Shown: piece by piece, positions 41,452 to 55,261 of the stretch
Layout: each line of letters opens with the position of its first letter
Position numbering within the stretch: the stretch's first letter is position 1
Assembly (NCBI GenBank): GCA_947446925.1
Contig: CANFHU010000001.1
Coordinates: forward strand, 248,001 to 312,000
Direction: 5' to 3'
DNA: 64,000 nucleotides
From: Flavobacteriia bacterium
GTDB lineage: Bacteria > Bacteroidota > Bacteroidia > Flavobacteriales_D > Crocinitomicaceae
Notes under the pieces: generated by a model
The model's database searches: none
What the model was told of the DNA's origin: nothing
Seen by the model: only the letters and a program-made list of their open reading frames with translations
Made by a program: the position numbers and the translations under genes

Positions 41452-42696
41452 TTACCCCACCAACAATCCAAACAAGGTCGGATTATTATTTAAGTACTCG
41501 AACGTAAAATTCAATGCGTTTAGTTTATCGCAAATTCCTTGGAAATCTTCTTTGTTTTTTAACTCGATACCAACAACTACAGGTCCGCTCTCACGACTAT
41601 TTTTCTTAGAGAATTGAAAATACGTAATGTCGTCTTCCTGACCCAATACTTCGTTTACGAATGCTTTCAAAGCTCCTGGACGTTGAGGAAATTGAATCAT
41701 AAAGTAATGTTTCAAACCTTCGTACACCAATGAACGTTCTTTGATTTCTTCGGTACGCGTAATATCGTTGTTACTTCCAGAAACGATGCATACAACATTC
41801 TTCCCTTTAATCTCTTCTTTGAAAAAATCCAAGGCGGATATTGTCAACGCTCCTGCTGGTTCTACCACCATTGCTTCTTCGTTGTACAAACTTAAAATGG
41901 TACTACACACTTTTCCCTCCGGAATGGTTATCACTTGATTTAAGACATCCTTACAGATTTCAAAATTTAAATCGCCTACACGTTTAACCGCAGCTCCATC
42001 TACAAATTTGTCGATGTGCTCTAAGGTCGTAACTTTTCCATTTTCTATCGATGTTTTCATCGAAGGAGCCCCTTCTGGTTCTACACCGATAATGATGGTA
42101 TTTGGGCTTAATTCTTTGAATACCGTACAAACTCCTGCAGCTAAGCCGCCGCCGCCAATTGGTACGAATAAATAATCGATTGGTTCTTCCGCATCTGCTA
42201 ATACCTCTAATGCTACCGTTCCTTGACCGGCGATAACCATCGGATCATCGAATGGGTGAATAAACGTCAAATTGTTTGCTTTACCATATGTTACCGCTTC
42301 CTGGTATGCATCGTCAAAGGTATCACCTGCCAAAACGATTTTAACTTTCGATTTTCCGAATAATTCTACTTGTCTGATTTTTTGTTTTGGAGTAGTGGAA
42401 GGCATGTATATGGTACCTTGAATTCCCAACACCATACAGGAATAAGCAACTCCTTGCGCATGATTTCCTGCACTCGCACATACAATTCCGTTTTGTTTTT
42501 GTTCTTCGGAAAGATTACACATTTTGTTATACGCTCCACGTAGTTTGTAGGAACGCACCAATTGTAAATCTTCTCTTTTTAACAAAATTTTCGAAGCAAA
42601 TCGATCGGATAAGTTAAGACTTTTCATCAAAGGAGTTTTGTAGGCTACTCCTTCTAATTTATTTTTTGCTTCTTGAACGTGTTGTAGTGTTATCAT
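41452..42696 (-). CDS. ilvA: Threonine ammonia-lyase (threonine deaminase)
   Basis: Deaminates threonine to 2-oxobutanoate, the first step committed to isoleucine. The PLP lysine lies in LVRSYKLRGAYN near residue 50, CASAGNHAQGVAYS and the PLP-phosphate loop PIGGGGLAAGV near 177-187 are present, and a C-terminal ACT-like segment (GLKHYFMIQFPQRPGALKAFVNEVL, from about 330) marks the biosynthetic form of about 415 residues with one regulatory domain. It lies 94 bp downstream of ilvC on the same strand, with a GC-rich inverted repeat between them. Feedback by isoleucine is expected from the regulatory domain but not shown. Confidence 0.93.
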   Translation of the reverse strand: MITLQHVQEAKNKLEGVAYKTPLMKSLNLSDRFASKILLKREDLQLVRSYKLRGAYNKMCNLSEEQKQNGIVCASAGNHAQGVAYSCMVLGIQGTIYMPSTTPKQKIRQVELFGKSKVKIVLAGDTFDDAYQEAVTYGKANNLTFIHPFDDPMVIAGQGTVALEVLADAEEPIDYLFVPIGGGGLAAGVCTVFKELSPNTIIIGVEPEGAPSMKTSIENGKVTTLEHIDKFVDGAAVKRVGDLNFEICKDVLNQVITIPEGKVCSTILSLYNEEAMVVEPAGALTISALDFFKEEIKGKNVVCIVSGSNNDITRTEEIKERSLVYEGLKHYFMIQFPQRPGALKAFVNEVLGQEDDITYFQFSKKNSRESGPVVVGIELKNKEDFQGICDKLNALNFTFEYLNNNPTLFGLLVG

Positions 42697-42790: not shown

Positions 42791-44299
42791 TTATATCTCG
42801 GCAGTTTCTAAATTACCAGTTGTAATTGTATTTATTACCTTCATGTCTGTCATTGCAGCACGCAATACATCTCCAACTTTTTCAATCGTGTGGGAACGTA
42901 ATACCTTGTTTACAGCGATGATTTCTTTATTATCTACTCCATTGTCTTTTCCGTCGTTGAAGTTTTTACCAATTACATCGGTATCGATTTTTGCCATGAA
43001 ATCAGCTAATAACGGTTTACAAGCGTGGTCGAATAAATAACATCCGTACTCTGCTGTATCCGAAATTACACGGTTCATTTCAAACAATTTTTTACGCGCG
43101 ATAGTATTCGCGATTAGTGGTGCTTCGTGCAACGATTCGTAGTAAGCAGATTCTTCTTTGATTCCTGTTTCTACCATTACTTCAAATGCTAATTCAACAC
43201 CTGCTCTTACCAAGGCAACCATCAATAAACCATTATCGAAGAATTCTTGTTCTGTAATTTTTGCAGTAGCTTCTGATTTCTCAAACGCTGTATTTCCTGT
43301 TGCTGCTCTCCACGTCAATAAGTCTTTATCGTTGTTAGCCCAATCCTCCATCATAGTTTTAGAGAAATGTCCACTCATGATATCGTCTTGGTGTTTTTCA
43401 AACAACGGACGCAGGATTGTTTTCAATTCGTTAGAAAGTTCAAACGCTTTGATTTTTGCTGGGTTCGATAAACGATCCATCATCGCAGTGATACCCCCTT
43501 GTTTCAAGGCTTCGGTAATTACTTCCCAACCGTATTGAATTAAAGTAGAAGCATAACCACTCTCAATTCCTTTTTCAATCATTTTGTCAAAACAAAGGAT
43601 AGATCCTGTTTGTAACACCCCACACAAAATGGTTTGTTCTCCCATTAAATCCGATTTTACCTCTGCAACAAAAGATGATTTTAAAACACCCGCTTTGTGT
43701 CCACCTGTACCAGCAGCATATGCTTTTGCCAATGTCCATCCTTTTCCTTCTGGATCATTTTCTGGGTGAACAGCAATTAATGTTGGTACACCAAAACCTC
43801 TTTTGTATTCCTCACGTACTTCTGTACCAGGACATTTTGGAGCAACCATAATTACGGTAATGTCTTTACGAACTTGCATTCCTTCTTCCACGATGTTGAA
43901 TCCATGCGAATACGATAAGGTAGCGCCTTGTTTCATCAATGGCATAATTGCAGAAACAACACTTGTATGTTGTTTGTCTGGCGTAAGGTTGATTACTAAA
44001 TCAGCTGTTGGAATTAATTCTTCGTACGTTCCAACTTCAAAACCATTGTCCGTAGCGTTTTTCCAAGAAGCGCGTTTTGTTTCGATAGCTTCTTTACGTA
44101 AGGTATATTTCACGTCCAACCCTGAATCTCTCAAGTTTAATCCTTGGTTTAAACCTTGTGCACCGCAACCAACGATGACAATTTTTTTACCGATTAAAGC
44201 ATTCACACCATCCGCAAACTGGTTGATGTCCATAAATTCACAAACCCCTAATTGGTTTAATTGTTCTCTTAATGATAGAGAGTTAAAATAATTTGCCAT
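42791..44299 (-). CDS. ilvC: Ketol-acid reductoisomerase, class II (long form)
   Basis: Second common enzyme of isoleucine/valine synthesis: isomerises and reduces acetolactate or acetohydroxybutyrate with NADPH and Mg. The Rossmann motif [18 protein letters not shown] lies near residues 43-60 and [31 protein letters not shown] near 152-182 is a KARI signature. At 502 residues, with a duplicated knotted C-terminal domain ([13 protein letters not shown] in the first copy), it is the class II long form as in E. coli IlvC rather than the short form of about 330 residues. A -7 element lies at 44347-44354. Confidence 0.96.
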
Positions 44300-44382: not shown

Positions 44383-45393
44383 TTAACCATCAAGTTGATT
44401 TAATTCAAATGCATATTCATAACTGATTACGCGTTTATTTTTTTCATTTTGTTTCCAAGCTTCTTCTAAATGACTCAAAGTAATAATGTCATTAGTGCTC
44501 GTTTCTTTAAAAACATCTGCTACTTTTTCAAGGGTTTCTAATTCATTTTTTGTAAATAAATTAGCATTAAAAGATCTGTCTTTTTTTGCCATAAATTGCT
44601 CTCCTGTATATCCTTGTGGAAATTCTGTTGTATAAATATCTAAATAATTATTATTCGCTAAATATTCAAATATACTTTGAAAATTAGTTGGCACAGGACC
44701 CATATCTATCGCTTTATATCGGACTCCACTAATCGAAAAACAACTTTGTTTAAACATTAAAAAATCAGCATAGAATAACAATTTATTCATCTTTGTTTTG
44801 AATGGTGATAGTTTTTCAGAAAAAAACACAACCATTTCCGTGAACTTTTCAAAGTTAGGATTTCTATAACCTGAATAAATATCTGCAAGATGGTTACCCA
44901 GTAAGTATTCCTTGAAATTTAACTTAAATAGATTTCTATTCTTTTCTTCCGATAAAATTCGTGCTTTTTGAATATACTTTTCTTTCGTTTTTAAATCAAT
45001 GGTTGAGCATAATTCCACCATTTCAATAAATATGTTGGGATCATCTATCATTTGAATTAACTTGGCATTCGCAACACTCGGCATTTCCCCGGATTCATAG
45101 TGTCGAAAACTATTCACGCCAAAACCTAAGATTTCTGAAATTTTAGATGCTCGCAAATCATATTTTTCACGAATTCTTTTTATTTCATCTGGAAATAAAA
45201 TATTAAATTTTTCACGATATCGATTATAAACTTGGTTCATATTTACCTCATCTAATGCTGTTGTAGTAAATTGTTCTCCACTGTCGATACATTTAAAATA
45301 ATGAAAGATAATTTCATACGTTTCTTTTCTGAAGGTCATTGACCTACGTTCTTTAAACAACAGCATTTCTTTGCCTGTAATTGGACTTTTCAT
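44383..45393 (-). CDS. Panacea (DUF4065/SocA-like) antitoxin with HTH domain
   Basis: 336 residues, second gene of a toxin-antitoxin-like pair. The N-terminal about 50 residues correspond to the MqsA/YgiT zinc-finger segment, but the zinc ligands are nearly all gone: MKSPITGKEM replaces CPxCG and only one Cys remains in FKCIDSGEQF. An XRE-like helix-turn-helix follows (about 65-115; RASKISEILGFGVNSFRHYESGEMPSVANA). Residues about 190-300 match the Panacea domain (KLLFYADFLMF, GVRYKAIDMGPVPTNFQSIFEYL), a domain known to neutralise diverse toxins. It starts 6 bp after the toxin gene. It may also repress the pair via the dyad at 45742-45762. Confidence 0.85.
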   Translation of the reverse strand: MKSPITGKEMLLFKERRSMTFRKETYEIIFHYFKCIDSGEQFTTTALDEVNMNQVYNRYREKFNILFPDEIKRIREKYDLRASKISEILGFGVNSFRHYESGEMPSVANAKLIQMIDDPNIFIEMVELCSTIDLKTKEKYIQKARILSEEKNRNLFKLNFKEYLLGNHLADIYSGYRNPNFEKFTEMVVFFSEKLSPFKTKMNKLLFYADFLMFKQSCFSISGVRYKAIDMGPVPTNFQSIFEYLANNNYLDIYTTEFPQGYTGEQFMAKKDRSFNANLFTKNELETLEKVADVFKETSTNDIITLSHLEEAWKQNEKNKRVISYEYAFELNQLDG

Positions 45394-45399
45394 TCTGTT

Positions 45400-45747
45400 T
45401 TATTTTAAAGGATAATTCATTTTGTGCTCTGCTATGTGAAATGATATACAAATAACGCTGCTTCCCATCGCCCCTAATGTAATCTTGATATACACTTCTT
45501 TTTTCTTTACAATAGTACCAAACATCCACATATCTGTACCGCCATACAATTTTTCTTCCAGCGGACCTTCACTGTAATCGTTCACTTGTAAAGTCTCTAA
45601 TGTTTTTTTTCGATCAATTGGTCGAAGTTCCAATTCTATTAAAGCTTGTGCATTTTTTCCTCTTTCATCACGAAAAAGCACATCCCAAAACTTCATTTTT
45701 TCTTTGAAATCCTTTAAAAAAGCCGCAACCTCTTCTTCTTTTCTCAT
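45400..45747 (-). CDS. MqsR-like toxin candidate
   Basis: 115 residues with the pattern FWDVLFRDERGKNAQALIELELRP, then LQVNDYSEGPLEE, DMWMFGTIVKKKEVYIKI and VICISFHIAEHKMNYPLK. The order of the last elements resembles MqsR, an mRNA interferase of the BECR fold (xSDFYxS, then IWQDVYR, GQVYLKI and VLIVSF in E. coli MqsR), so an RNase toxin is likely but not proved. It precedes the antitoxin gene by 6 bp; toxin-first order is also that of mqsRA. A -7 element and a dyad lie directly upstream. The pair sits in the accessory patch that splits the ilv genes. Confidence 0.72.
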   Translation of the reverse strand: MRKEEEVAAFLKDFKEKMKFWDVLFRDERGKNAQALIELELRPIDRKKTLETLQVNDYSEGPLEEKLYGGTDMWMFGTIVKKKEVYIKITLGAMGSSVICISFHIAEHKMNYPLK

Positions 45748-45762
45748 ACATTATACATGAGA
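45742..45762. promoter_or_regulatory. Dyad at the toxin start codon, possible autoregulatory operator
   Basis: TCTCAT (45742-45747) and ATGAGA (45757-45762) form a 6-bp inverted repeat with a 9-bp spacer; one arm contains the toxin start codon. It lies 11 bp inside the -7 element at 45773-45780, a suitable place for repression by the HTH antitoxin. Confidence 0.4.
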
Positions 45763-45772
45763 TATAAAATTA

Positions 45773-45780
45773 CAAAATTA
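45773..45780 (-). promoter_or_regulatory. Probable -7 element of the toxin-antitoxin pair
   Basis: The minus strand reads TAATTTTG, a match to TAnnTTTG, 26 bp before the toxin ATG. Confidence 0.42.
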
Positions 45781-45942
45781 TTTTACAAAACAACTTTAAG
45801 GTTGAAAAAATAATTAAAACATGTTGAATAACGACTTTAAAGTAGTTTAAAATTATCAGTAAATGTGACAAGATGAATTCAACAGGATATGTCCGAAGTA
45901 ATCGGACGTTTGGAAATGAAAGTAATAACTGCTTTATTGATT

Positions 45943-46352
45943 TTAAACTAACTCTAATCCTTTCTTACTATTCAATTCAATACCATAATAATTAAAATCA
46001 TTCTCTGTAGGATTTTCGGATTCGATCATGTCCAAAATACAATCTTCATTAGGAATAGATTCAAAATATAAGCTGAAAAATTGCCAATCTGCCTTAGATT
46101 GAAAATTGATTCTATTTGGAGAAATCGCTATTCCTTCCGCTTCTAAAAGCGAATATTTTTTAGCTGTATTGTTTGTTATCAAATAAGTTTTTGGAGAAAT
46201 TTTAATCCATCCACCATTTTTATAATACCAAGGTGCTGTATACCCAAAGTCAATACGTGTATGTTTATCTGTTAAACAATGCGAAGCATTTTAGGATTTT
46301 GTTTTTCTAAGTCTTCTATCTCAAAAAGAAAAGGGGTTGCAACTTTTTCCAT
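45943..46352 (-). pseudogene. Frameshifted paralogue of the gene at 47433-47909
   Basis: Read on the minus strand from the ATG at 46352, a frame gives MEKVATPFLFEIEDLEKQ and stops at 46272. A second frame, open from about 46290 to 45943, continues with HTRIDFGYTAPWYYKNGGW, the LEAEGIAISP segment and a FNYYGIEL end. The second part aligns along its length with the intact protein at 47433-47909 (YTRIEFIY, ENGGWIQ, IKTEGIPLAPSKHYFRSKG, YFNFYNM). One indel between about 46275 and 46292 therefore breaks the gene. It would start 2 bp past the WYL regulator stop, as an operon partner. A sequencing error cannot be excluded. Confidence 0.75.
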
Positions 46353-46354
46353 CG

Positions 46355-47338
46355 CTATTTCAGTTTTTTAGTAAATTCTACAAACCAACTCGGGGAGATG
46401 ATAGACACATGATGTCCATGTGAAAGAAATAATCTTGTTAATTCAATGGTTGGTATCAATTCAAAGTGAATAATAGCATTACCGTGTGGTTGCTTTTCTA
46501 CTACCTGACTAGTATGTATGGGATATGCAAGAAAATAATTGGTTGCCAAAGCACTTGCTTCAATTTTAACTATTTGTTTGGGTTGCTTTGGAATCGGAAA
46601 TACCCCATAATAATCCAGCTGCATACTTTCTATCGTTGAATCATCCAATTTTATAAACTTTTTACGAAGAACTAAAGGGGAAAAAATGCGATCCATACCA
46701 AAGGTTCTAACTTCTTTATGTTTTTCTGAAAATCCAACAACATACCATTTGTTCTCAAATTCTTTAATCAAAGAGGGATGAATAATTATAGATGAAAAAG
46801 TGCGCTTTTTATAGGAATAATGAATAAAAGAAACGGGTTGTTTGTGGATACACGCAGTATAAAACAAATCAAAATGTTCAAATCCGCGCGAGGGTGGTGG
46901 AACCATCGTTTGCACGTGTTTTTCACGTTGTTTGTGGGAAGGAAATTCTTCTAGTACGGTGGTAAGTATTTTTTCAATCGCGCTATTAAATTTTTCACTC
47001 ACACGAGAACCACCAACTAATTGCAAGAGTTCTGCTGATTCTTTAATAGTTTCAATGTCTAAATCGGATAATTGTACCCCAAGTAGGGAAAATTCAGGAT
47101 TGGAGTATTCATATCCACCTTTGGAACGATTATACCGAATCGGAGCATCAAAGCCATCTGGAGGAGACATTCGCATGTGTGCAATATCTTTTTGGATGGT
47201 TTCAATGGAAATATCTAGCCCTAATTTATCATAACAAGCATCTATAATTTCTTGCATGGTAGGATAGCGTTTCATCGTGTTTTTAAGTAACATATCTATT
47301 ACTTTATACCTTCGAAAAGCACTTTTATTAATTGGCAT
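46355..47338 (-). CDS. WYL-domain transcriptional regulator
   Basis: 327 residues with an N-terminal winged helix (about 1-60; MQEIIDACYDKLGLDISIETIQKDIAHMR), a WYL domain (about 140-215; KQPVSFIHYSYKKRTFSSIIIHPSLIKEFENKWYVVGFSEKHKEVRTFGMDRI) and a C-terminal WCX-type extension. WYL proteins bind small ligands or nucleic acids and often control defence or stress genes. A 7-bp dyad, TCCGTAT...ATACGGA, lies in the 94-bp gap to the divergent gene at 47433, so the regulator may control both directions. The gene directly downstream is a frameshifted paralogue of that divergent gene. Confidence 0.87.
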   Translation of the reverse strand: MPINKSAFRRYKVIDMLLKNTMKRYPTMQEIIDACYDKLGLDISIETIQKDIAHMRMSPPDGFDAPIRYNRSKGGYEYSNPEFSLLGVQLSDLDIETIKESAELLQLVGGSRVSEKFNSAIEKILTTVLEEFPSHKQREKHVQTMVPPPSRGFEHFDLFYTACIHKQPVSFIHYSYKKRTFSSIIIHPSLIKEFENKWYVVGFSEKHKEVRTFGMDRIFSPLVLRKKFIKLDDSTIESMQLDYYGVFPIPKQPKQIVKIEASALATNYFLAYPIHTSQVVEKQPHGNAIIHFELIPTIELTRLFLSHGHHVSIISPSWFVEFTKKLK

Positions 47339-47376
47339 TTAAATTTTTTATTACTAAAATACACTTTATTATTTAC

Positions 47377-47395
47377 TCCGTATATTGAATACGGA
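47377..47395. promoter_or_regulatory. Dyad in the divergent WYL promoter region
   Basis: TCCGTAT (47377-47383) and ATACGGA (47389-47395) are a perfect 7-bp inverted repeat with a 5-bp spacer, 38 bp before the WYL regulator start and 37 bp before the divergent gene. Central placement suggests an operator for the WYL regulator (inference). Confidence 0.5.
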
Positions 47396-47432
47396 ATACG
47401 TTTATTTCTTTGTTACATAAAACTAAAAAACA

Positions 47433-47909
47433 ATGGAAGTAAAAATTGAAAAATGGGTAGAAGTAATCCGCGAATCAGAGGTTTCAAAATCAATTAAATT
47501 GTATAATCCAGCAGCCTTGGATTTTAAATCTAATCACCGAATGAAAAGTATTGAGTTATCGGAGGAATATACGCGTATTGAATTTATTTATCGGTCTTCG
47601 GTCATTTGGGAAAATGGTGGTTGGATACAAATGGATCCGAATGCATTTATTAGGCCTGTTGGTTCTTCGATGAAATATCGTTTGATAAAAACAGAAGGAA
47701 TACCGTTAGCTCCATCCAAACATTATTTCAGAAGTAAAGGGGAATACCACACGTACACCTTAATTTTTCCTGCACTACCGGGAAATACAAAACAGATAGA
47801 TATTATTGAACGAGAAGCAACAGGTACGTATTTCAATTTTTACAATATGGATTATTCAACATGGATGAAAATTCCGCACCCGATGGATGTACAAAGGTCT
47901 ACTAATTAA
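47433..47909 (+). CDS. Conserved protein of unknown function, divergent from WYL regulator
   Basis: 158 residues without signal peptide or membrane helix, mostly beta-rich. Landmarks: EEYTRIEFIYRSS, ENGGWIQMDPNAFIRP, LIKTEGIPLAPSKHYFRSKGEYHTYTLIFPALP and IDIIEREATGTYFNFYNMDY. I recognise the YFNFYxM/I ending as a motif of several uncharacterised Bacteroidota proteins but no function. A frameshifted paralogue lies on the other side of the WYL regulator (45943-46352), so the regulator is flanked by two versions of the same protein. It is the first of four genes packed on the plus strand to 49045. Confidence 0.75.
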   Translation: MEVKIEKWVEVIRESEVSKSIKLYNPAALDFKSNHRMKSIELSEEYTRIEFIYRSSVIWENGGWIQMDPNAFIRPVGSSMKYRLIKTEGIPLAPSKHYFRSKGEYHTYTLIFPALPGNTKQIDIIEREATGTYFNFYNMDYSTWMKIPHPMDVQRSTN

Positions 47910-47916
47910 CCAATGC

Positions 47917-48441
47917 ATGAAAAGGAAGAATACACTTGGTAAACTGTTAATTGGTGGCTTAATTATTACCAGTTGCCAGCAAAAAAGTAAACATCAAAAA
48001 ATAATAAGCGCTTTTGAAAATTGGAAAAACACTCAACTCAGTATTGGAAATTACCAAACAAAAAACAGTGAATTAGGACAAGGATTTCCGGATGAAATAA
48101 TCGTTTTTTATACCGACTTAAATCAAGATGAAAACGTGGATGCGATTATCTGTTTCAATCCAATTTTGTTTGGCGGCGGGAATGCATTAATGAACGCACA
48201 AGAAAAATTAATGATTGTTTCAAAAAATGAAAATTACGAAGTGGATGATTCGACACTGTCTAACCTGGAACGTACATTAAAATCTGGTTGGATACATGTT
48301 ACCAATGCAAGTAATGGTGTAATTTCAGGAGATTATTACGATTATAAAAAGAAAGATGGTCGGTGTTGTCCAAGCATACACAAACAAGTGGAAATGAATG
48401 TGATAAATAAAAAAGTATCTTTAACTTTTAAACTAAAATAA
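47917..48441 (+). CDS. Putative lipoprotein of unknown function
   Basis: 174 residues. The ATG at 47917 begins MKRKNTLGKLLIGGLIITSC, a lipoprotein signal with lipobox IITS-C, so the mature N-terminal Cys would be lipidated. An upstream in-frame ATG at 47887 overlaps the preceding gene and would put ten residues before the basic signal-peptide start, so it was not chosen. The mature part (IISAFENWKN, GFPDEIIVFYTDLNQDENVDAIICFNP) has a DLNQDENVDA calcium-loop-like stretch. The gene is 7 bp after its neighbour and 1 bp before the next small gene. The function is unknown. Confidence 0.75.
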   Translation: MKRKNTLGKLLIGGLIITSCQQKSKHQKIISAFENWKNTQLSIGNYQTKNSELGQGFPDEIIVFYTDLNQDENVDAIICFNPILFGGGNALMNAQEKLMIVSKNENYEVDDSTLSNLERTLKSGWIHVTNASNGVISGDYYDYKKKDGRCCPSIHKQVEMNVINKKVSLTFKLK

Positions 48442-48442
48442 A

Positions 48443-48622
48443 ATGACAGAAAAAAACAACTCAAAAAGAAAAGTAGAACTTCAATGCGAATTGGAAAAAT
48501 GGAAAGATCTAAAAAATGATGCGGTTAAACAGCAACGGTATGAAGATGCAGCAAACCTAAGAGAAAAACAACGAGAAGTTGAAATAGCTTTGAAAGAGAT
48601 CGAAGATGAAGAACTGAAATAA
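48443..48622 (+). CDS. 59-residue coiled-coil protein with UVR-like motif
   Basis: A short open frame, MTEKNNSKRKVELQCELEKW to EDEELK, fully open between its neighbours with a 1-bp gap upstream and 6 bp downstream. The middle, AVKQQRYEDAANLREKQREV, follows the UVR-motif pattern (AxxxxxYExAAxLRDxI) found in UvrB, UvrC, ClpC and McsA, where it mediates protein-protein contact. The rest is a charged, helix-forming sequence. It is probably a real gene because of its fit in the operon and its family-like motif. Its partner is unknown. Confidence 0.72.
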   Translation: MTEKNNSKRKVELQCELEKWKDLKNDAVKQQRYEDAANLREKQREVEIALKEIEDEELK

Positions 48623-48628
48623 AGACTG

Positions 48629-49045
48629 ATGAAACTATTTACTTTAAATCAAAGCAATCCTTTCATTGAATTCATATTAAATTCAAAGGAAAGTTACATT
48701 ACCATTAAAAGTATTCATTTACAATATAAGGGTAACGATACTACGCAATGGATGGAAGAATTTTCAAAAATGAAATTGCTGGTAACCCATCATTCCCTTG
48801 TCTTCACCACTGAATCATTCGTCGATGAAAGAACGCTAGACTATACGATTTTATTATTTCCTGAAATTAATCAAAGTCAGCCTATCATTCATTTGAATCA
48901 AACCATTAAAAATGATGTTTTAAAAATAGGGTGGAATTCTTCGGAGAAATTTTATACTTCGTTAAAATTAGAAATTCAACACATCAAGGAAACATTCGAT
49001 GTTCTTCTCGATATTGATTTATTTGAGGTAGCGAAAAAGTGCTGA
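48629..49045 (+). CDS. Hypothetical protein
   Basis: 138 residues, no signal peptide, no recognised domain. The chain alternates beta-type stretches (LDYTILLFPEINQSQPIIHL, DVLKIGWNSSEKFYTSLKLEI) and ends in a helix. It follows the UVR-motif mini-protein after 6 bp and closes the four-gene plus-strand run that begins at 47433. No promoter is seen within the run. The gap to convergent ilvN holds a hairpin at 49069-49131. Confidence 0.65.
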   Translation: MKLFTLNQSNPFIEFILNSKESYITIKSIHLQYKGNDTTQWMEEFSKMKLLVTHHSLVFTTESFVDERTLDYTILLFPEINQSQPIIHLNQTIKNDVLKIGWNSSEKFYTSLKLEIQHIKETFDVLLDIDLFEVAKKC

Positions 49046-49153: not shown

Positions 49154-49693
49154 CTACAAAATAATCTTCTCGTTATTCATATCTTCTATATGCTCTTCCA
49201 ATGTTTTCATTGGTTTAGAAATTGCTACACGACCGGAACGCACAAACTCTAACAAACCAAATGGTTTCAACTCGGTGAACAATTCTTTGATTTCGTCTGG
49301 GTAACCTGTTTTCTCCAAAATGGTAAATTCAGATTCAATCGTTAAAATACGTGCATGGTGCGCACGCACAATACGTTCTGCATCTCCCCCACTTGCTAAT
49401 GCAATCGTTGGTAATTTATATAACGCGATTTCTTGGTAAACGACCTCATCATCCGAATGGTAAAAAGCTTTTACCACATCGATTTGTTTTTCAATTTGTG
49501 AAATCACTTTACGCACTGTTTCTTTCGGTTCATTCACCACAATCGTATAACGGTGAATTCCTTCGATTTCAGATTCGGAAGCAGTAATACTTTCGATGTT
49601 AATATTTCTACGTGTGAAAATGATCGTGATACGATTCAACATCCCAACGCTATTTTCTGTAAATACGGATATATTATATGTGTTACTTTCCAT
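49154..49693 (-). CDS. ilvN: Acetolactate synthase small (regulatory) subunit
   Basis: Regulatory subunit that activates the catalytic IlvB subunit and gives valine feedback. The N-terminal ACT domain has YNISVFTENSVGMLNRITIIFTRRNINIESITASESE (about 5-42), the canonical AHAS small-subunit motif; the C-terminal domain contains ALASGGDAERIV and LEFVRSGRVAISK. Its 179 residues fit the IlvN/IlvH group. It lies 6 bp after ilvB and is the last gene of the ilvE-ilvD-ilvB-ilvN run. The alternative symbol is ilvH. Confidence 0.95.
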   Translation of the reverse strand: MESNTYNISVFTENSVGMLNRITIIFTRRNINIESITASESEIEGIHRYTIVVNEPKETVRKVISQIEKQIDVVKAFYHSDDEVVYQEIALYKLPTIALASGGDAERIVRAHHARILTIESEFTILEKTGYPDEIKELFTELKPFGLLEFVRSGRVAISKPMKTLEEHIEDMNNEKIIL

Positions 49694-49699
49694 CTTTTC

Positions 49700-51388
49700 T
49701 TAGTTTAAACGAATTTCAGATACGGAAGCGCCTGTTGCTACCATTGGGAATACATTCTCTTCTTGCTCTACAACTACCTCTAATAAATAAGCTGCTTTAC
49801 TTGACAACATGGTGTCTAATGCTTCACTTAATTCAACACGTTGATCTATTTTTTTCGCTTCGATGTCGTATCCTTTCGCAATTTGTGTAAAGTTAGGATT
49901 CACGATATCTGTAAATGAATAACGTTTTTCGAAGAACAATTCTTGCCATTGACGCACCATTCCAAGGAAGTTATTATTTAAAATCAAGATCTTAATGTCT
50001 ATTTTAAATTGTAAAATCGTACCTAACTCTTGGATGGTCATTTGGAAACCACCATCTCCAATAATTGCTACAACTGTTTTGGAAGGGTTACCCAACTTTG
50101 CGCCTATAGCAGCTGGTAATGCAAATCCCATTGTACCCAAACCACCAGAAGTAACATTGGTATTGTGTGCTTTGTATTGGTAATAGCGCGAAGTAACCAT
50201 TTGGTGTTGACCAACATCCGTTACAATAATTGCCTGCCCTTCTGTTTTTTCAGAAAGCATATTTACCACTTCCGCCATTTGTAAACGGTCGTGTTTTGGG
50301 TGAATTGCATCTTCAATTACAGCTTCAACTTCCAATTTTTCAGCATCTCTAAATTCTTGTATCCACGATTCGTGTGTACGTTTTTCCACTTTCGTAGTCA
50401 ACAATGCCAATGCTTCTTTTGCATCTGCGTGTATAGAAACCTCGTTTGTTACAATTTTATTTAATTCTGCAAAGTCAATATCAATGTGAATGATTTTTGC
50501 TTGTTTCGCATAACGACTAACATCTCCTGTTACTCGGTCATCAAAACGCATACCCACTGCAATCAATACATCGCATTCATTGGTTTTAATGTTCGGTGCG
50601 TAATTTCCATGCATTCCTAAATAACCAACATATTGTGGGTGATTTGGTGGGAATGCACCTAAACCCAATAAAGTAGAGGCAACAGGAATTCCTGATTTCT
50701 CAGCAAATTCTAACAGTTCTTGTTCCGCATTCGCTAAGGTAATTCCTTGACCTATTAAAATATATGGTTTTTTAGCAGTATTCAATAACGCCGCTGCATC
50801 GTCAATTTTCGTAGCATCCATCACTGGATTTGGGAAATAACTACGAATGTCTTTGCATGCTTCGTAATTAAAGTCCATCATTCCAAACTGTGCATCTTTG
50901 GTAATATCAACCAATACTGGACCTGGACGACCAGAACGCGCAATGAAAAATGCTTTTGCTAAAGCCGCAGGAATATCTTCCGCTCTTTTTACTTGTACGT
51001 TCCATTTCGTAACAGGCATCGAAATACCAATTACATCTGTTTCTTGGAATGCATCTGTTCCTAACAAATGAGACGCTACTTGTCCTGTGATACAAACCAC
51101 CGGTGTAGAATCAATCATTGCATCTGCTAATCCTGTAATTAAATTGGTTGCTCCCGGACCAGAAGTTGCAAAACATACACCACATGTTTCGGATGTACGC
51201 GCAAATCCTTGTGCAGCATGAATCGCACCTTGTTCGTGACGCACCAAGATATGATTTACTTGTTCTTTGTAATCATACAATGCATCGTAGATTGGCATGA
51301 TTGCACCTCCAGGGTAACCAAAGATGGTGTGAACTCCTTCGGCTACAAGGCTTTTTATTACGGCTTCTGAACCTGTTATCTGACTCAT
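49700..51388 (-). CDS. ilvB: Acetolactate synthase large (catalytic) subunit
   Basis: Thiamine-diphosphate enzyme that condenses pyruvate with pyruvate or 2-oxobutanoate, the first common step of valine and isoleucine synthesis. The catalytic Glu is in RHEQGAIHAAQGFAR near residue 47-61, GPGATNLITGLADA follows, and the ThDP motif is GDGGFQMTIQELGTILQFKIDIKILILNNN near 431-460. SALTOGETHER the 562-residue length and FAD-binding middle domain fit AHAS. The neighbours are ilvN (6 bp) downstream and ilvD upstream across a 372-bp spacer full of repeats, so transcription from the ilvE promoter may not be the only source. Confidence 0.95.
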   Translation of the reverse strand: MSQITGSEAVIKSLVAEGVHTIFGYPGGAIMPIYDALYDYKEQVNHILVRHEQGAIHAAQGFARTSETCGVCFATSGPGATNLITGLADAMIDSTPVVCITGQVASHLLGTDAFQETDVIGISMPVTKWNVQVKRAEDIPAALAKAFFIARSGRPGPVLVDITKDAQFGMMDFNYEACKDIRSYFPNPVMDATKIDDAAALLNTAKKPYILIGQGITLANAEQELLEFAEKSGIPVASTLLGLGAFPPNHPQYVGYLGMHGNYAPNIKTNECDVLIAVGMRFDDRVTGDVSRYAKQAKIIHIDIDFAELNKIVTNEVSIHADAKEALALLTTKVEKRTHESWIQEFRDAEKLEVEAVIEDAIHPKHDRLQMAEVVNMLSEKTEGQAIIVTDVGQHQMVTSRYYQYKAHNTNVTSGGLGTMGFALPAAIGAKLGNPSKTVVAIIGDGGFQMTIQELGTILQFKIDIKILILNNNFLGMVRQWQELFFEKRYSFTDIVNPNFTQIAKGYDIEAKKIDQRVELSEALDTMLSSKAAYLLEVVVEQEENVFPMVATGASVSEIRLN

Positions 51389-51420
51389 AGTTTTTATTCT
51401 AAACGGATATTAAAATTTGC

Positions 51421-51645
51421 TTATTCTTCGTTCAACTGCAAAAAATATCGTTTCATTTACTGGTGTAAACTCAACTCAATTTTTCTTGTTTGCCTCAACT
51501 AATCAAATTTCTCTATCCTTAATTTATATTTTATTTTTTAGATAATGTATTTACTCTTCGTTCGACTGCAAAAAATATCGTTTCATTTACTGGAGTAAAC
51601 TCAACTCAATTTTTCTTATCTGCCTCGATTAAACACATTTTCTAT
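51421..51645. repeat. Direct repeat pair of about 95 bp between ilvD and ilvB
   Basis: Copies at about 51421-51515 and 51551-51645 share long identical blocks such as CTGCAAAAAATATCGTTTCA and AAACTCAACTCAATTTTTCT, with scattered differences. Each contains a small hairpin, TTTACTGGTGTAAA or TTTACTGGAGTAAA, in which the stem is preserved or extended. Edges of the unit (CTTTTCGTTCAACT and TTCTTGTCTGCCTCAATTAA) recur at about 53469-53567, in the ilvE-ilvD spacer, with a different middle. Confidence 0.8.
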
Positions 51646-51739: not shown

Positions 51740-51764
51740 GTAGCCTGAGGCTCTCGAAGGCTAC
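51740..51764 (-). repeat. Hairpin with CTGAGRCTCTCGAA loop at the ilvD stop
   Basis: GTAGCC and GGCTAC pair around a loop with CTGAGGCTCTCGAA; the right arm includes the ilvD stop codon. The same loop sequence with one change and an unrelated stem (TTATTC/GAATAA) lies at 58510-58531, also directly after a minus-strand gene. Confidence 0.6.
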
Positions 51765-53434
51765 TTATCCGTGATACATCCTTCGGTAGCAGTTGCAACG
51801 CATTTTGCATATTTATACAAAACACCTTGTGTTGCTTTTAAGGCTGGTTGTTTCCAATTTTTTCTTCGTTCTGCTAATTCTTCGTCGCTTACTTTTAATG
51901 TTAATGTGTTGTTAACAGCATCGATTACTATGCTATCTCCATCTTCCACCAATGCAATGTTTCCACCATCAATTGCTTCCGGAGTAATGTGACCAACTAC
52001 AAATCCGTGTGTTCCTCCAGAGAAACGTCCATCTGTAATTAATGCAACACTATTTCCTAAACCAGCACCCATAATTGCCGATGTTGGTTTCAACATTTCT
52101 GGCATTCCTGGCCCACCTTTTGGTCCACACATACGAATGACAACTACCGAACCTGCTTTAATACGGCCATCGTTCAATCCGTCAATCACCGTAAATTCAT
52201 CTTCAAAAACAACTGCTGTTCCTTCAAAAAATTCACCTTCGTGTCCGCTGATTTTAGCAACGGAACCTTGTGGAGCTAAGTTACCATACAATACTTGTAA
52301 ATGTCCTGTTGGCTTGATTGCTTTTTCAATTGGTAAGAAAATTTCTTGTCCTACTTGAAATGATGGAAGTTCTGCTAAATTTTCAGCAACCGTTTTACCT
52401 GTTACAGTTAAACAATCGCCGTGTAACATACCATGTTCTAACATGTATTTCATCACCGCTGGTGTTCCACCTACGTTATGTAAATCTTCCATCAACGATT
52501 TACCAGAAGGTTTTAAGTCTGCAAGAACAGGAGTAATATCACTCAATTTTTGAACATCATCAATCGTTAATGTGATACCAACAGAATGTGCCATTGCTAT
52601 TAAATGTAATACCGCATTTGTAGACCCACCCAATACTAATACAATACGAATCGCATTTTCAAATGCTTTCATCGTCATGATATCGCGCGGTTTGATATCT
52701 TTTTCTAATAATACACGAATCGCTCTTCCTGCTGCATCACACTCGTGTTTTTTATCTGCACTCAATGCTGGGTTGGAAGAACTATAAGGTAAACTCATCC
52801 CTAAAGCTTCAATTGCAGATGCCATTGTGTTTGCGGTATACATACCACCACAAGCACCTGCACCAGGACATGCATGTTTGATGATACCTTTAAAATCCTC
52901 CGGTGAAATTGCATTATTCATTTTTTTACCCAAGGCTTCAAAAGCAGAAACAATGTTTAATTGTTCCCCTTTCCAATTTCCAGGAGCAATCGTTCCACCA
53001 TATACCATGATTGCAGGACGATTTAATCTTCCCATTGCGATTAGGGAACCTGGCATGTTTTTATCACAGCCCATTACAGCAATTAGTCCATCATAATACT
53101 GTGCTCCACAAACTGTTTCAATGGAATCCGCAATAATATCGCGAGAAACTAATGAATAACGCATACCATCCAACCCATTTGACATACCATCACTCACACC
53201 GATCGTATTAAAAATTAATCCAACCATATCAGCAGCTTGAATCGATTTTTTAATGTCTTTCGATAGATCATTCAAATGCATGTTACACGTGTTACCTTCA
53301 TAACCAGCACTTGCAATACCTACTTGTGCTTTACGCATATCCTCATCTGTCAAACCGATACCGTACAACATTGCTTGTCCAGCAGGTTGAGTTTCGTTTT
53401 GGGTGATGTTTCGGGAGTATTTATTGATTTCCAT
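51761..53434 (-). CDS. ilvD: Dihydroxy-acid dehydratase
   Basis: Iron-sulfur enzyme that dehydrates dihydroxy acids to the 2-oxo acid precursors of valine and isoleucine. Cluster and metal ligands are seen in [11 protein letters not shown] (near 45-55), [10 protein letters not shown] (near 119-128) and [18 protein letters not shown] (near 187-204). [14 protein letters not shown] and [20 protein letters not shown] are family signatures. 557 residues is normal. It lies 167 bp after ilvE; the spacer has remnants of the repeat unit found between ilvD and ilvB. Confidence 0.96.
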
Positions 53435-53468
53435 ATATTTTAATTTTTAGATTTAAAAATTAACTTGC

Positions 53469-53567
53469 TTTTCGTTCAACTTCAAAATTCAATTTAGCTT
53501 CGCTGAGACTTCGTGTTCTCATATGCAACAGCACACTGCTGATTAAATTTCTTGTCTGCCTCAATTA
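53469..53567. repeat. Diverged copy of the ilv spacer repeat
   Basis: Starts with CTTTTCGTTCAACT and ends with TTCTTGTCTGCCTCAATTAA, matching the edges of the repeats at 51421-51645, while the middle differs and contains a CAGCA...TGCTG hairpin. It lies between ilvE and ilvD. Confidence 0.5.
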
Positions 53568-53601: not shown

Positions 53602-54483
53602 TTATACTAGCTCCAAATCCTTATTTACAACTAAATTCATATAATTTTTCTGAATAATAGCTCCTTTTGTATCTTTCCATGCTTTTGGGAAAACATAATC
53701 GTCTACCGATTCAATGCCTGCAACTTCCGCTGCTGTTCCACAATAGAAAGCTGCATCTGCTGTTTTTATTTCTTCTGGTGTAAAGAATTTTTCTTCAATT
53801 TCGATTCCTAATTTTTTTGCTAAATCAATCACTGTTGCTCGTGTAATTCCTGCTAAAATATTTCCAAGCGGTGCCGTAAATAACTTTCCATCTTTTTCTA
53901 AGAAGAAATTAGCACCAGGACCTTCAGCAACATTTCCATGCATATCTGTCAATAAAGCTTCATCGTACCCATTTTGTTTTGCTTCCGTAGATGCTAAAAT
54001 AGAATTGATATAATGACCAACTACTTTTGCTTCTACATGACACGATTTAGGATTTGGACGTTGGTAAGAAGAAATACCTAAACGCAATAATTTGTCTCCT
54101 AATAATTTACCCCAATCCCAAGCCATGATAACCACATGTACTTCATCGGTTGGTAATAAAGACATATTTGCACCTAAATATACTAGTGGACGAATATATG
54201 CGTCTTTCAAATTATTACGTTTCAATACTTCATAGGTAATTTCTTCCAATTCTTGCCACGTATAATTTAACTTGATGTGCATCTTCTCTGCAGAGTAATG
54301 CAAACGATCATAATGTTCTTTTGCTTTAAAAATTTTTGTTCCTTCTGCTGTGTCATACGAACGAATACCTTCAAACACACCATTTCCATAATGCATAGTT
54401 TGGTTGTACAAGTTCACCCCAGAATCCGAAGCTTTTACATATTTTCCATCTAAAAAGATAATTGTTTCGTCGTTAAAATACAT
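53602..54483 (-). CDS. ilvE: Branched-chain amino acid aminotransferase
   Basis: Fold-type IV PLP aminotransferase that makes or degrades Leu, Ile and Val with glutamate/2-oxoglutarate. Seen: YFNDETIIFLDGKYVKASDSGVNLYNQTMHYGNGVFEGIRSY at the N terminus, the PLP lysine in SCHVEAKVVGHYINSI near residue 152, EALLTDMHGNVAEGPGANFF near 175-194 and FYCGTAAEVAGIESVD near 250. 293 residues matches the short bacterial form. It is the first gene after the attenuator leader at 54507-54657, so its expression and that of the downstream ilv genes should depend on Ile/Val charging. Confidence 0.95.
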   Translation of the reverse strand: MYFNDETIIFLDGKYVKASDSGVNLYNQTMHYGNGVFEGIRSYDTAEGTKIFKAKEHYDRLHYSAEKMHIKLNYTWQELEEITYEVLKRNNLKDAYIRPLVYLGANMSLLPTDEVHVVIMAWDWGKLLGDKLLRLGISSYQRPNPKSCHVEAKVVGHYINSILASTEAKQNGYDEALLTDMHGNVAEGPGANFFLEKDGKLFTAPLGNILAGITRATVIDLAKKLGIEIEEKFFTPEEIKTADAAFYCGTAAEVAGIESVDDYVFPKAWKDTKGAIIQKNYMNLVVNKDLELV

Positions 54484-54506: not shown

Positions 54507-54544
54507 AAAAAAAAAGCCTTTCTGTGGTTAGACGAGAAAGGCTT
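54507..54544 (-). terminator. Attenuator terminator of the ilv leader
   Basis: On the minus strand AAGCCTTTCT (54544-54535) pairs perfectly with AGAAAGGCTT (54523-54514) across an 11-base loop, and nine T follow (plus-strand A at 54507-54515). It lies 24 bp before ilvE and after the leader peptide, so it must be bypassed for ilvE expression. Confidence 0.92.
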
Positions 54545-54575
54545 AGTATATCTATAATACCCTATCTCGTCAGGT
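54534..54575 (-). promoter_or_regulatory. Antiterminator alternative to the ilv terminator
   Basis: In the leader RNA, GACGAGATAGG (just at the leader stop, complement of about 54561-54571) can pair with CCTTTCTCGTC (complement of about 54531-54541) in 10 of 11 positions. The second strand overlaps the 5' arm of the terminator, so the two folds exclude each other. A ribosome at the leader stop codon would cover the first strand and let the terminator form. Confidence 0.8.
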
Positions 54576-54623
54576 TGTCCAGACAATAATAGTGTTGATA
54601 ATAATGACAGTGTTGTTATACAT
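54570..54623 (-). CDS. ilv operon leader peptide, MYNNTVIIINTIIVWTT
   Basis: A 17-codon open frame with ATG at 54623 and TGA at 54570, of sequence MYNNTVIIINTIIVWTT. Seven of 17 residues are Ile (five) or Val (two), with runs VIII and IIV, as expected of a control peptide for branched-chain amino acid synthesis. It sits between a TATATTTG promoter box and a terminator with an alternative antiterminator, 87 bp before ilvE. Scarcity of Ile- or Val-tRNA should stall the ribosome on these codons and free the antiterminator strand. It is too short for ordinary gene finding; the call rests on codon content and RNA context. Confidence 0.88.
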   Translation of the reverse strand: MYNNTVIIINTIIVWTT

Positions 54624-54649
54624 ACTAATTCTACTTTTTACAAGCGTAG

Positions 54650-54657
54650 CAAATATA
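54650..54657 (-). promoter_or_regulatory. -7 element of the ilvE leader transcript
   Basis: The minus strand reads TATATTTG, matching TAnnTTTG. It lies 26 bp before the leader ATG, so the whole leader, antiterminator and terminator would be transcribed. No good -33 TTG is present. Confidence 0.55.
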
Positions 54658-54754
54658 TAAAATTTGAAGTAAATAGTAAGAAATTAGGTAAATTTATTTT
54701 GATAGTGTTTTGACTATCTCAACTTTTTCACTAAATTAAATAAGAAAAGTGAAC

Positions 54755-55261
54755 ATGGAACTATCAATTATTCATGAAAGAATACATGAAATCAGAGGTA
54801 AAAAAGTAATTCTAGACAAAGATTTAGCGGAATTGTATGGGGTAGAGACAAGAGTATTAAAACAAGCTGTTCGAAGAAATATTCAACGTTTCCCAGAGGA
54901 TTTTATGTTTGAGATAAATGAAGATGAAATTCAAAAGATGGTATCACAAATTGTGATACCATCTAAACAATACTTTGGTGGTGCAAAACCTTTTGCATTC
55001 ACAGAACAAGGTATTGCGATGCTCTCAAGTGTGCTACATTCCGAAAAAGCAATTCAAGTAAACATTGCAATTATGCGTGCTTTTGTGCTAATGAGACAAT
55101 ATGCATTAAATTTCCAAGAACTTGCTCTGAAAATTCAGGAACTTGAAAAAACGTATGATAAAACATTTGATGATGTATTTGATGTATTAAATCATTTACT
55201 CAAAAAAGACAAGCAATTGGAACAACAAACAAAAAGGGAAAAGATTGGATTTAAGAAATAA
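54755..55261 (+). CDS. ORF6N domain protein
   Basis: 168 residues from the ATG at 54755 (a GTG two codons upstream is possible). The N-terminal about 100 residues match the ORF6N DNA-binding-type domain, shared with phage antirepressor-like proteins: IHEIRGKKVILDKDLAELYGVETRVLKQAVRRNIQRFPEDFMFEINEDE and KPFAFTEQGIAMLSSVLHSEKAIQVNIAIMRAFV. The tail is a coiled coil (about 115-165). A 29-bp palindrome lies inside the gene (54936-54964) and a related one just after it (55272-55290), perhaps its own binding sites. No other phage genes are nearby, so this is a solitary chromosomal copy. Confidence 0.88.
   Translation: MELSIIHERIHEIRGKKVILDKDLAELYGVETRVLKQAVRRNIQRFPEDFMFEINEDEIQKMVSQIVIPSKQYFGGAKPFAFTEQGIAMLSSVLHSEKAIQVNIAIMRAFVLMRQYALNFQELALKIQELEKTYDKTFDDVFDVLNHLLKKDKQLEQQTKREKIGFKK
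54936..54964. promoter_or_regulatory. 29-bp palindrome inside the ORF6N gene
   Basis: AGATGGTATCACAA and its complement form 14-bp perfect arms around a single A. The palindrome encodes KMVSQIVIPSK without disturbing the reading frame. The core TCACAAATTGTGA recurs at 55272-55290. Confidence 0.65.

Follow-up and report, generated by a model that had tools for sequence, protein, structure and literature searches.

How is transcription of the ilv operon controlled in this member of the Crocinitomicaceae, and does the short ORF upstream of ilvE take part in that control? In the window, i.e., the whole stretch of 64,000 nucleotides analyzed here, the minus strand carries the first structural gene, ilvE, which encodes a branched-chain aminotransferase (53602–54483; NCBIfam TIGR01122), together with ilvD (dihydroxy-acid dehydratase, 51761–53434; NCBIfam TIGR00110), ilvB (acetolactate synthase large subunit, 49700–51388; NCBIfam TIGR00118), and ilvN (acetolactate synthase small subunit, 49154–49693; NCBIfam TIGR00119). 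The same strand bears ilvC about 5 kb further (ketol-acid reductoisomerase, 42791–44299; NCBIfam TIGR00465) and ilvA (threonine ammonia-lyase, 41452–42696; NCBIfam TIGR02079). A preliminary description of this DNA had read the region before ilvE as a complete leader-peptide attenuator for isoleucine and valine synthesis. Our analysis leads to much the same answer: the element very probably controls ilvE-ilvD-ilvB-ilvN by ribosome-mediated attenuation of transcription, as in the trp/his/ilv type.

Several features of the surroundings were also observed. Unrelated genes occupy the interval between ilvN and ilvC (44383–49045) and were apparently inserted into the ilv cluster; an MqsA-family antitoxin-like protein (44383–45393) and an adjoining small ORF (45400–45747) lie in this interval. 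Two copies of an intergenic repeat that bears TTGAGGCARAYAAGAAA and GTTGAACGAA motifs are present in the ilvD–ilvB gap (51400–51640, minus strand), and the repeat has 10 matches in its own genome, the query itself counted; similar motifs are present in the ilvE–ilvD gap (53468–53564, minus strand). On the other side, the leader adjoins a divergent ORF (54749–55261, plus strand; 170 aa from a GTG), which has no NCBIfam match and which we take to resemble an ORF6N-type phage antirepressor.

The whole attenuator is encoded on the minus strand, within the 265 bp that separate this divergent ORF from the ilvE ATG (54483). Its ORF, its stems, their exclusive pairings, and their conservation emerge from the sequence and from computed folds. 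At the 5′ side is the box TATATTTG (54650–54657), which fits the TAnnTTTG consensus of the Bacteroidota −7 element, and which is the only such match within 350 nt before ilvE. The leader-peptide ORF, MYNNTVIIINTIIVWTT, extends from ATG to TGA (54570–54623) and has seven Ile/Val among 17 residues, in the order V, I, I, I, I, I, V; GTC (54608–54606 and 54584–54582) is the codon for each of the two Val. Strand 2, GACGAGATAGG (54561–54571), starts at the second base of the TGA leader stop codon and pairs with strand 1 or strand 3, while strand 3, CCTTTCTCGTC (54531–54541), pairs with strand 2 or, through its first part, with strand 4. The antiterminator duplex 2:3 (GACGAGATAGG/CCTTTCTCGTC) covers 11 positions, with 10 pairs and one T.T mismatch. 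The intrinsic terminator (54507–54544; −12.8 kcal/mol) consists of the 10-bp stem 3:4, with arms AAGCCTTTCT (54544–54535) and AGAAAGGCTT (54523–54514), and a run of nine T (54515–54507), the last of which is 24 positions from the ilvE ATG, i.e., with 23 bases between. Since the upstream gene is divergent (54749, plus strand), this terminator has no same-strand upstream gene to end. It is absent from the list of a generic scanner, presumably since that scanner allows only loops of 3–8. In all these parts, namely the promoter box, the leader with its seven Ile/Val codons, the antiterminator that begins at the leader stop, the terminator, and the mutual exclusion of two folds that both use strand 3, the preliminary description was borne out.

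Its claim of a complete attenuator held for the leader, the antiterminator, and the terminator, but it had missed the 1:2 hairpin. Strand 1, the 5′ arm of this anti-antiterminator hairpin (54579–54592), is made up of the codons ATT ATT GTC TGG (Ile12, Ile13, Val14, Trp15) and the bases that precede them. Positions 54592–54588, 54586–54582, and 54580–54579 pair with 54574–54573 and 54571–54562 (as RNA, CUAUU-A-UUGUC-U-GG with CC-U-GACGA-GAUAG), and strand 2 is thereby occupied except for its last base. With this predicted hairpin, the element has all four strands of a classical trp-type attenuator. The leader region as a whole folds with z = −3.26 and the 2:3 duplex with z = −3.5, the latter giving p = 0.12 on a stricter contiguous-helix measure; the 1:2 hairpin has modest support and does not surpass a codon-preserving control (p = 0.105), and the wider 1:2 region has z = −1.1 against dinucleotide shuffles.

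From this arrangement we infer a start site, a mode of termination and stalling, and a response to starvation. Transcription would start just 3′ of TATATTTG, to give a leader RNA of about 135–140 nt. If Ile-tRNA and Val-tRNA are plentiful, the ribosome would reach the UGA stop and cover strand 2; 3:4 would then form, and RNA polymerase would terminate 23 nt before ilvE. Under a shortage of charged Ile- or Val-tRNA, the ribosome would wait at the Ile-Ile-Val codons 12–14 or at Ile9 and so cover strand 1, leaving strand 2 free to form 2:3, and the polymerase would read through. In an untranslated leader, both 1:2 and 3:4 would form, and transcription would stop.

Fold models of the window leader agree with part of this scheme. 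At equilibrium, the full-length RNA without a ribosome has a terminator probability of 1.00 and a 1:2 probability of 0.98, and with a ribosome masking the stop codon, the terminator is again at 1.00. Also at equilibrium, the antiterminator attains 0.33–0.77 only for A-site positions at codons 10–14 (12-nt footprint) or 9–13 (15-nt footprint); with the 15-nt footprint, a stall at Val14 leads to the terminator. In the model of the RNA before strand 4 is made, 2:3 has a probability of 0.86 versus 0.13 for 1:2 without a ribosome, and 2:3 reaches 0.99 with stalls at codons 1–14 (12-nt footprint). Since 2:3 beats 1:2 in this model before strand 4 is made, any sequestering role of 1:2 would depend on 1:2 forming first.

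Conservation of the leader and its stems in close relatives had been named as a check on the proposal. A search of 12 same-genus genomes found ilvE at the cut-off in eight, and one contig begins inside ilvE, which leaves seven loci with DNA upstream of the gene. All seven retain the terminator and the last part of the leader frame, and strand 2 is nearly unchanged in six. The seventh, L021, has an altered strand 2, a weaker 2:3 duplex (−10.6 kcal/mol, z = −2.0), and no leader-plus-terminator layout by the stricter count described below; it has lost the first Val-Ile run and kept the Ile-Ile-Val before the stop, a run at which read-through was obtained in the fold model of the window. The box TATATTTG is present in the six loci with enough upstream DNA, at −174 from ilvE in five of them, as in the window, and 8 nt further, at −182, in L021. 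A codon at which the equilibrium test permits read-through was found only in the window and in L019 among the seven genus members tested. The seven aligned genus leaders (the window and six loci) are too alike for pair counting. Several MAG records whose IlvE is 86–99% identical to that of the window are titled Chitinophaga pinensis, Chryseobacterium gleum, or Planktophila (L017, L018, and L022 among them); these unlikely names look wrong, since several of the next-nearest IlvE records are titled Crocinitomicaceae.

A similar arrangement recurs well beyond the genus. Eighty ilvE loci were taken from named records, most of whose titles name Bacteroidota (the MAGs L022, L067, L093, and L095 are titled with other groups or none), and 77 of these, with the window, have at least 300 nt upstream, giving 78. 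Two loci in which ilvE is cut by a contig end (L033 and L086) were left out of every count, and L020, with 137 nt upstream, out of the layout count. The layout was defined as an ATG ORF that includes a stretch of 8 residues with 5 or more Ile/Val and that ends 12–50 nt before a terminator. It was found before ilvE in 63 of 78 loci, and in 66 when relaxed to 4 Ile/Val in 8; at the stricter setting, 15 loci lack it. None of 390 dinucleotide shuffles had the same layout, which occurred at 2 of 292 other gene starts and in 1 of 78 reverse complements; Ile/Val leaders alone, at the stricter setting, were found in 65 of 78 ilvE upstream regions versus 7 of 390 shuffles. The layout recurs, with different stem sequences, in four orders whose assignment was checked by taxonomy for one genus each, the Flavobacteriales, Cytophagales (Fulvivirga), Sphingobacteriales (Pedobacter), and Chitinophagales, and the distance from leader stop to terminator is mostly about 20–30 nt across clades.

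These controls bear on the view that a constitutive weak terminator merely follows a chance ORF, and that ilvE is transcribed from another, downstream promoter. Terminator-like hairpins do arise by chance, in 16 of 390 shuffles, and a TAnnTTTG box lies within 90 nt upstream of only 21 of 67 leaders (shuffle rate 0.07), so that the promoter is not clear everywhere. However, the near absence of leader plus terminator from the shuffles and from other gene starts argues against coincidence, and in the window the T run is separated from ilvE by only 23 nt, and the sole TAnnTTTG match within 350 nt before ilvE lies 5′ of the leader. We consider this explanation very improbable.

The pairings themselves were then assessed locus by locus, because 25 leaders aligned with MAFFT matched too poorly at strand 2 for pairs to be counted. 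Of 67 loci, 47 have a 2:3 duplex with z < −1.5, and the contiguous helix has p < 0.05 in 34 of 62, a measure from which L017 and L031 were left out as near-duplicates. Since 36 different strand-3 words are involved, the pairing is kept as the sequence changes. In many Chitinophagaceae, strand 2 is inside the last leader codons and not after the stop. The 1:2 hairpin reached p < 0.05 against the codon-preserving control in 10 of 64 loci, most strongly in Flavobacterium/Tenacibaculum types, and the wider 1:2 region had a mean z of −0.58 against dinucleotide shuffles, with 14 of 67 loci below −1.5. (L038, L052, non-ATG, and off-spacing pairs were left out of the codon, 1:2, fold-model, and stricter helix tests.) At equilibrium, terminator probability exceeded 0.8 in all 64 leaders, whether the ribosome was absent or placed at the stop, and only 19 of the 64 loci have any codon at which it falls below 0.6. 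Ile/Val codons are enriched at these permissive positions (58/111 versus 573/1562; reached in none of 2000 permutations), a result that rests on 19 loci. With so few loci having a permissive codon at equilibrium, read-through would have to rest on the order of folding.

Leaders of the same kind precede other amino-acid operons. A survey of 18 genomes detected hisG in 11, and a His leader lies upstream in all 11; in 10 of them this is an ATG ORF in which 3 or more His fall within 7 residues, with a detected terminator, and the eleventh locus, L133, has a leader with four His. Two or more Trp are present in the leader of each of the 12 strong trpE loci (L164–L175), and a terminator was detected for 11 of these; six weaker matches of the trpE domain have no Trp leader. 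The chance rate of such ORFs is 11 in 500 shuffles of these regions for His and 24 in 600 for Trp. The RF01692 model matches only two of the 12 trpE loci with Trp leaders, both with leaders that read WWW, and this Rfam family thus covers a small part of its kind. For thrA, the case for leader attenuation is weak: Thr-rich leaders with Ile or Ser were found in 7 of 13 regions (L189 being mostly Ser/Thr), and a well-placed terminator in only one, L182. Leader residues fit the pathway, with Ile/Val before ilvE, His before hisG, and Trp before trpE. Neither hisG nor trpE had a match in the genome of the window or in four same-genus genomes (0/5 each), four of which five encode a homoserine dehydrogenase, and auxotrophy for histidine and tryptophan is possible in these bacteria. 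Given the lack of hisG and trpE matches, ilv may be among the few pathways left under leader control in this genus.

This fit of residue to pathway is one of several arguments against another reading, in which the leader ORF encodes a small trans-acting peptide, the terminator merely yields a small RNA, and the richness in Ile/Val reflects a membrane-like peptide. Leader peptides can indeed act in trans, as is reported for peTrpL (PMC7298713), and the longer leaders of the Chitinophagaceae have a common C-terminal part (IIIVVVIIIPALNGGGA and the like). However, many Chitinophagaceae use precisely these C-terminal codons as strand 2, the N-terminal parts vary freely (as in L021), and what persists is the stop–terminator distance of mostly about 20–30 nt and a stop-proximal pairing that is kept while its sequence changes. 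A peptide function of this kind is thus most unlikely to account for the element. Least probable of all is a metabolite- or tRNA-binding RNA, either a riboswitch or a T-box, with an incidental ORF: a terminator and an alternative fold are present, as in such elements, but the only Rfam family at gathering score in the window is a distant tRNA, no T-box or riboswitch family match was found there (a riboswitch hit on the other strand scored 24.9 against a cut-off of 45), the conserved features are an Ile/Val frame and short stems with no large common fold seen (without a covariance model), and since the permissive hits at the site, some of them on the other strand, are far below cut-off, this reading is set aside.

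Among the control codons of these leaders, one is strongly favored. In 64 ilvE leaders, GTC was observed 87 times versus 11.0 expected from genes at the same loci, and the Ile codon ATA was avoided (30 observed versus 73.3 expected); in 45 ORFs of the window, GTC is rare and accounts for 50 of 1137 Val codons. Of the 11 clades with Val codons in their leaders, 9 show an excess of GTC (p < 0.01, with related codons counted as independent; the clades were hand-made from names and leader likeness). The choice also depends on position, since GTC makes up 61 of 81 leader Val codons directly before Ile versus 26 of 121 elsewhere; the corresponding figure for GTC before ATT in genes is 40/355. A purely structural need is not taken to be the usual cause, because one GTC of the window is in the 1:2 hairpin and the other is outside it.

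The tRNA complement was surveyed in two genomes for an isoacceptor that would serve GTC separately. No tRNA-Val(GAC) was found among 31 Rfam matches in the genome of the window, for which the best 150 of 305 candidates were scored; this list is incomplete, since tRNA-Ile(GAU) and tRNA-Ala are also missing from it. Nor was tRNA-Val(GAC) found in a one-contig genome (G037; best 150 of 258 candidates scored), where 33 of 34 tRNA matches were resolved and the remaining one, 82 nt long, was left out. The sole tRNA-Val found in both of these incomplete lists is tRNA-Val(UAC). We read the over-use of GTC as selection for a slow, sensitive Val codon; given that the enrichment is position-dependent, it may instead stem from an RNA-level or codon-pair motif, or from common descent from one ancestor. 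No report of GTC over-use in leaders was found in the literature searched.

A second particularity is that attenuators may stand in series. Two or three complete units, each with leader, antiterminator, and terminator, precede ilvE in 9 of 77 loci, a count that stands without a separate chance control. Three units were found in L037 (Flavobacterium limnosediminis), L046 (Aequorivita sinensis), and L062 (Myroides phaeus), and two in L035, L036, L053, L058, L064, and L070; in L058, a further terminator-like stem upstream suggests a third unit. By record title, we take all nine to be Flavobacteriaceae, an assignment that was checked by taxonomy for Myroides. The TACATTTG box (TAnnTTTG) is only before the first unit in L046 and L062, an extra TAnnTTTG match lies between units in L037, and three serial loci have no such box. 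At a trpE locus, L165, a terminator likewise follows each of two Trp leaders. Serial attenuators with leader peptides were not described in the literature searched; the passages on tandem elements in PMC2965389 and PMC9413887 concern a tandem terminator of the rimP leader and tandem arrangements of transcription start sites, of histidine codons, and of T-boxes. A series of attenuators would offer an unusual natural means of sharpening a starvation response.

Taken further, these observations lead to a broader proposal, which we advance tentatively and to which we give somewhat less than an even chance. The window copy would belong to an old, Bacteroidota-wide family of ilv attenuators with a GTC-ATT-ATT core; GTC, which is rare in these genomes and, to judge from the two incomplete tRNA lists, seems to be decoded by tRNA-Val(UAC) alone with a poor match at the third base, would be the most sensitive Val codon; and the serial units of the Flavobacteriaceae, multiplied along a single transcript and in some species with a first unit of mixed Ile/Val and later ones of Ile only, would give a steeper or two-input response. 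If this is true, both the old family and the serial units would need tight coupling between ribosome and RNA polymerase in Bacteroidota, given that leader-peptide attenuation works only if the ribosome closely trails the polymerase through the leader. Bacteroidota initiate translation largely without Shine-Dalgarno pairing. The conserved leaders before ilvE, hisG, and trpE would be natural reporters that make coupling in this phylum directly testable. According to passages of PMC1183508, it has been proposed that control codons are chosen for their sensitivity to charged tRNA, and the GTC-ATT-ATT core offers a test of this idea outside the enterobacteria. A specialist is most likely to take an interest in the GTC core and the serial units.

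How does the element compare with known systems? In enterobacterial attenuators, the first structural gene is preceded by a leader ORF that contains cognate codons, by alternative hairpins, and by a terminator. The window has all of these. In contrast to the enterobacterial cases, its box is of the Bacteroidota type and its leader relies on Ile and Val only, with no Leu run; moreover, there is no detectable sequence kinship, since the Thr leader RF00506, the sole amino-acid-operon leader among the permissive Rfam hits at the site, scored 19.2 bits against a cut-off of 55. A comparative prediction of leader-peptide attenuators by Vitreschak et al. in 2004 (FEMS Microbiol Lett 234:357) is said to mention Bacteroidetes/Chlorobi in its abstract as well. 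For Escherichia coli and Salmonella, PMC1183508 lists the ilvGMEDA, ilvBN, leu, thr, his, trp, and pheA attenuators.

Outside the enterobacteria, a likeness in gene context is found in Actinobacteria, where candidate leader peptides and terminators before ilvB are described in PMC1262725. As in the window, a short ORF with Ile/Val/Leu codons and a terminator precede a branched-chain operon; unlike in the window, the ORF overlaps the terminator hairpin, and the paper presents the mode of regulation as unclear. It also cites work on Streptomyces coelicolor in which the regulation of ilvB was unaffected when candidate control codons upstream of it were changed, a precedent that warns against trusting sequence alone.

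Within the phylum, leader-peptide elements have been indicated for other pathways. Bacteroid-trp RNA (RF01692), presented in passages of PMC2864571 as a leader-peptide cis-regulatory RNA of Bacteroidota, is of the same phylum and type as the window element but concerns tryptophan instead of Ile/Val, and it had no hit in the window at gathering score or among the permissive hits at the site. In Flavobacterium psychrophilum, leader-peptide attenuators were suggested upstream of amino-acid operons from a mapped transcriptome, as excerpts of PMC9723704 relate; phylum, amino-acid biosynthesis operons, and structured 5′ regions are as in the window, and "ilv" has no occurrence in the main text of that paper. 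Similarly, parts of PMC7366714 mention long 5′ UTRs in B. thetaiotaomicron with sORFs "reminiscent of leader peptides." The preliminary description had supposed that such attenuators are rarely described in Bacteroidota. We found no description of an ilv case in the literature searched, mostly without subscription journals or supplements; the kind as such is known (RF01692; PMC9723704). The mechanism is classical, and in Bacteroidota it is known for trp and indicated for the amino-acid operons of F. psychrophilum; to judge from the upstream regions compared here, the attenuator of the window appears to belong to a large and little-described set in this phylum.
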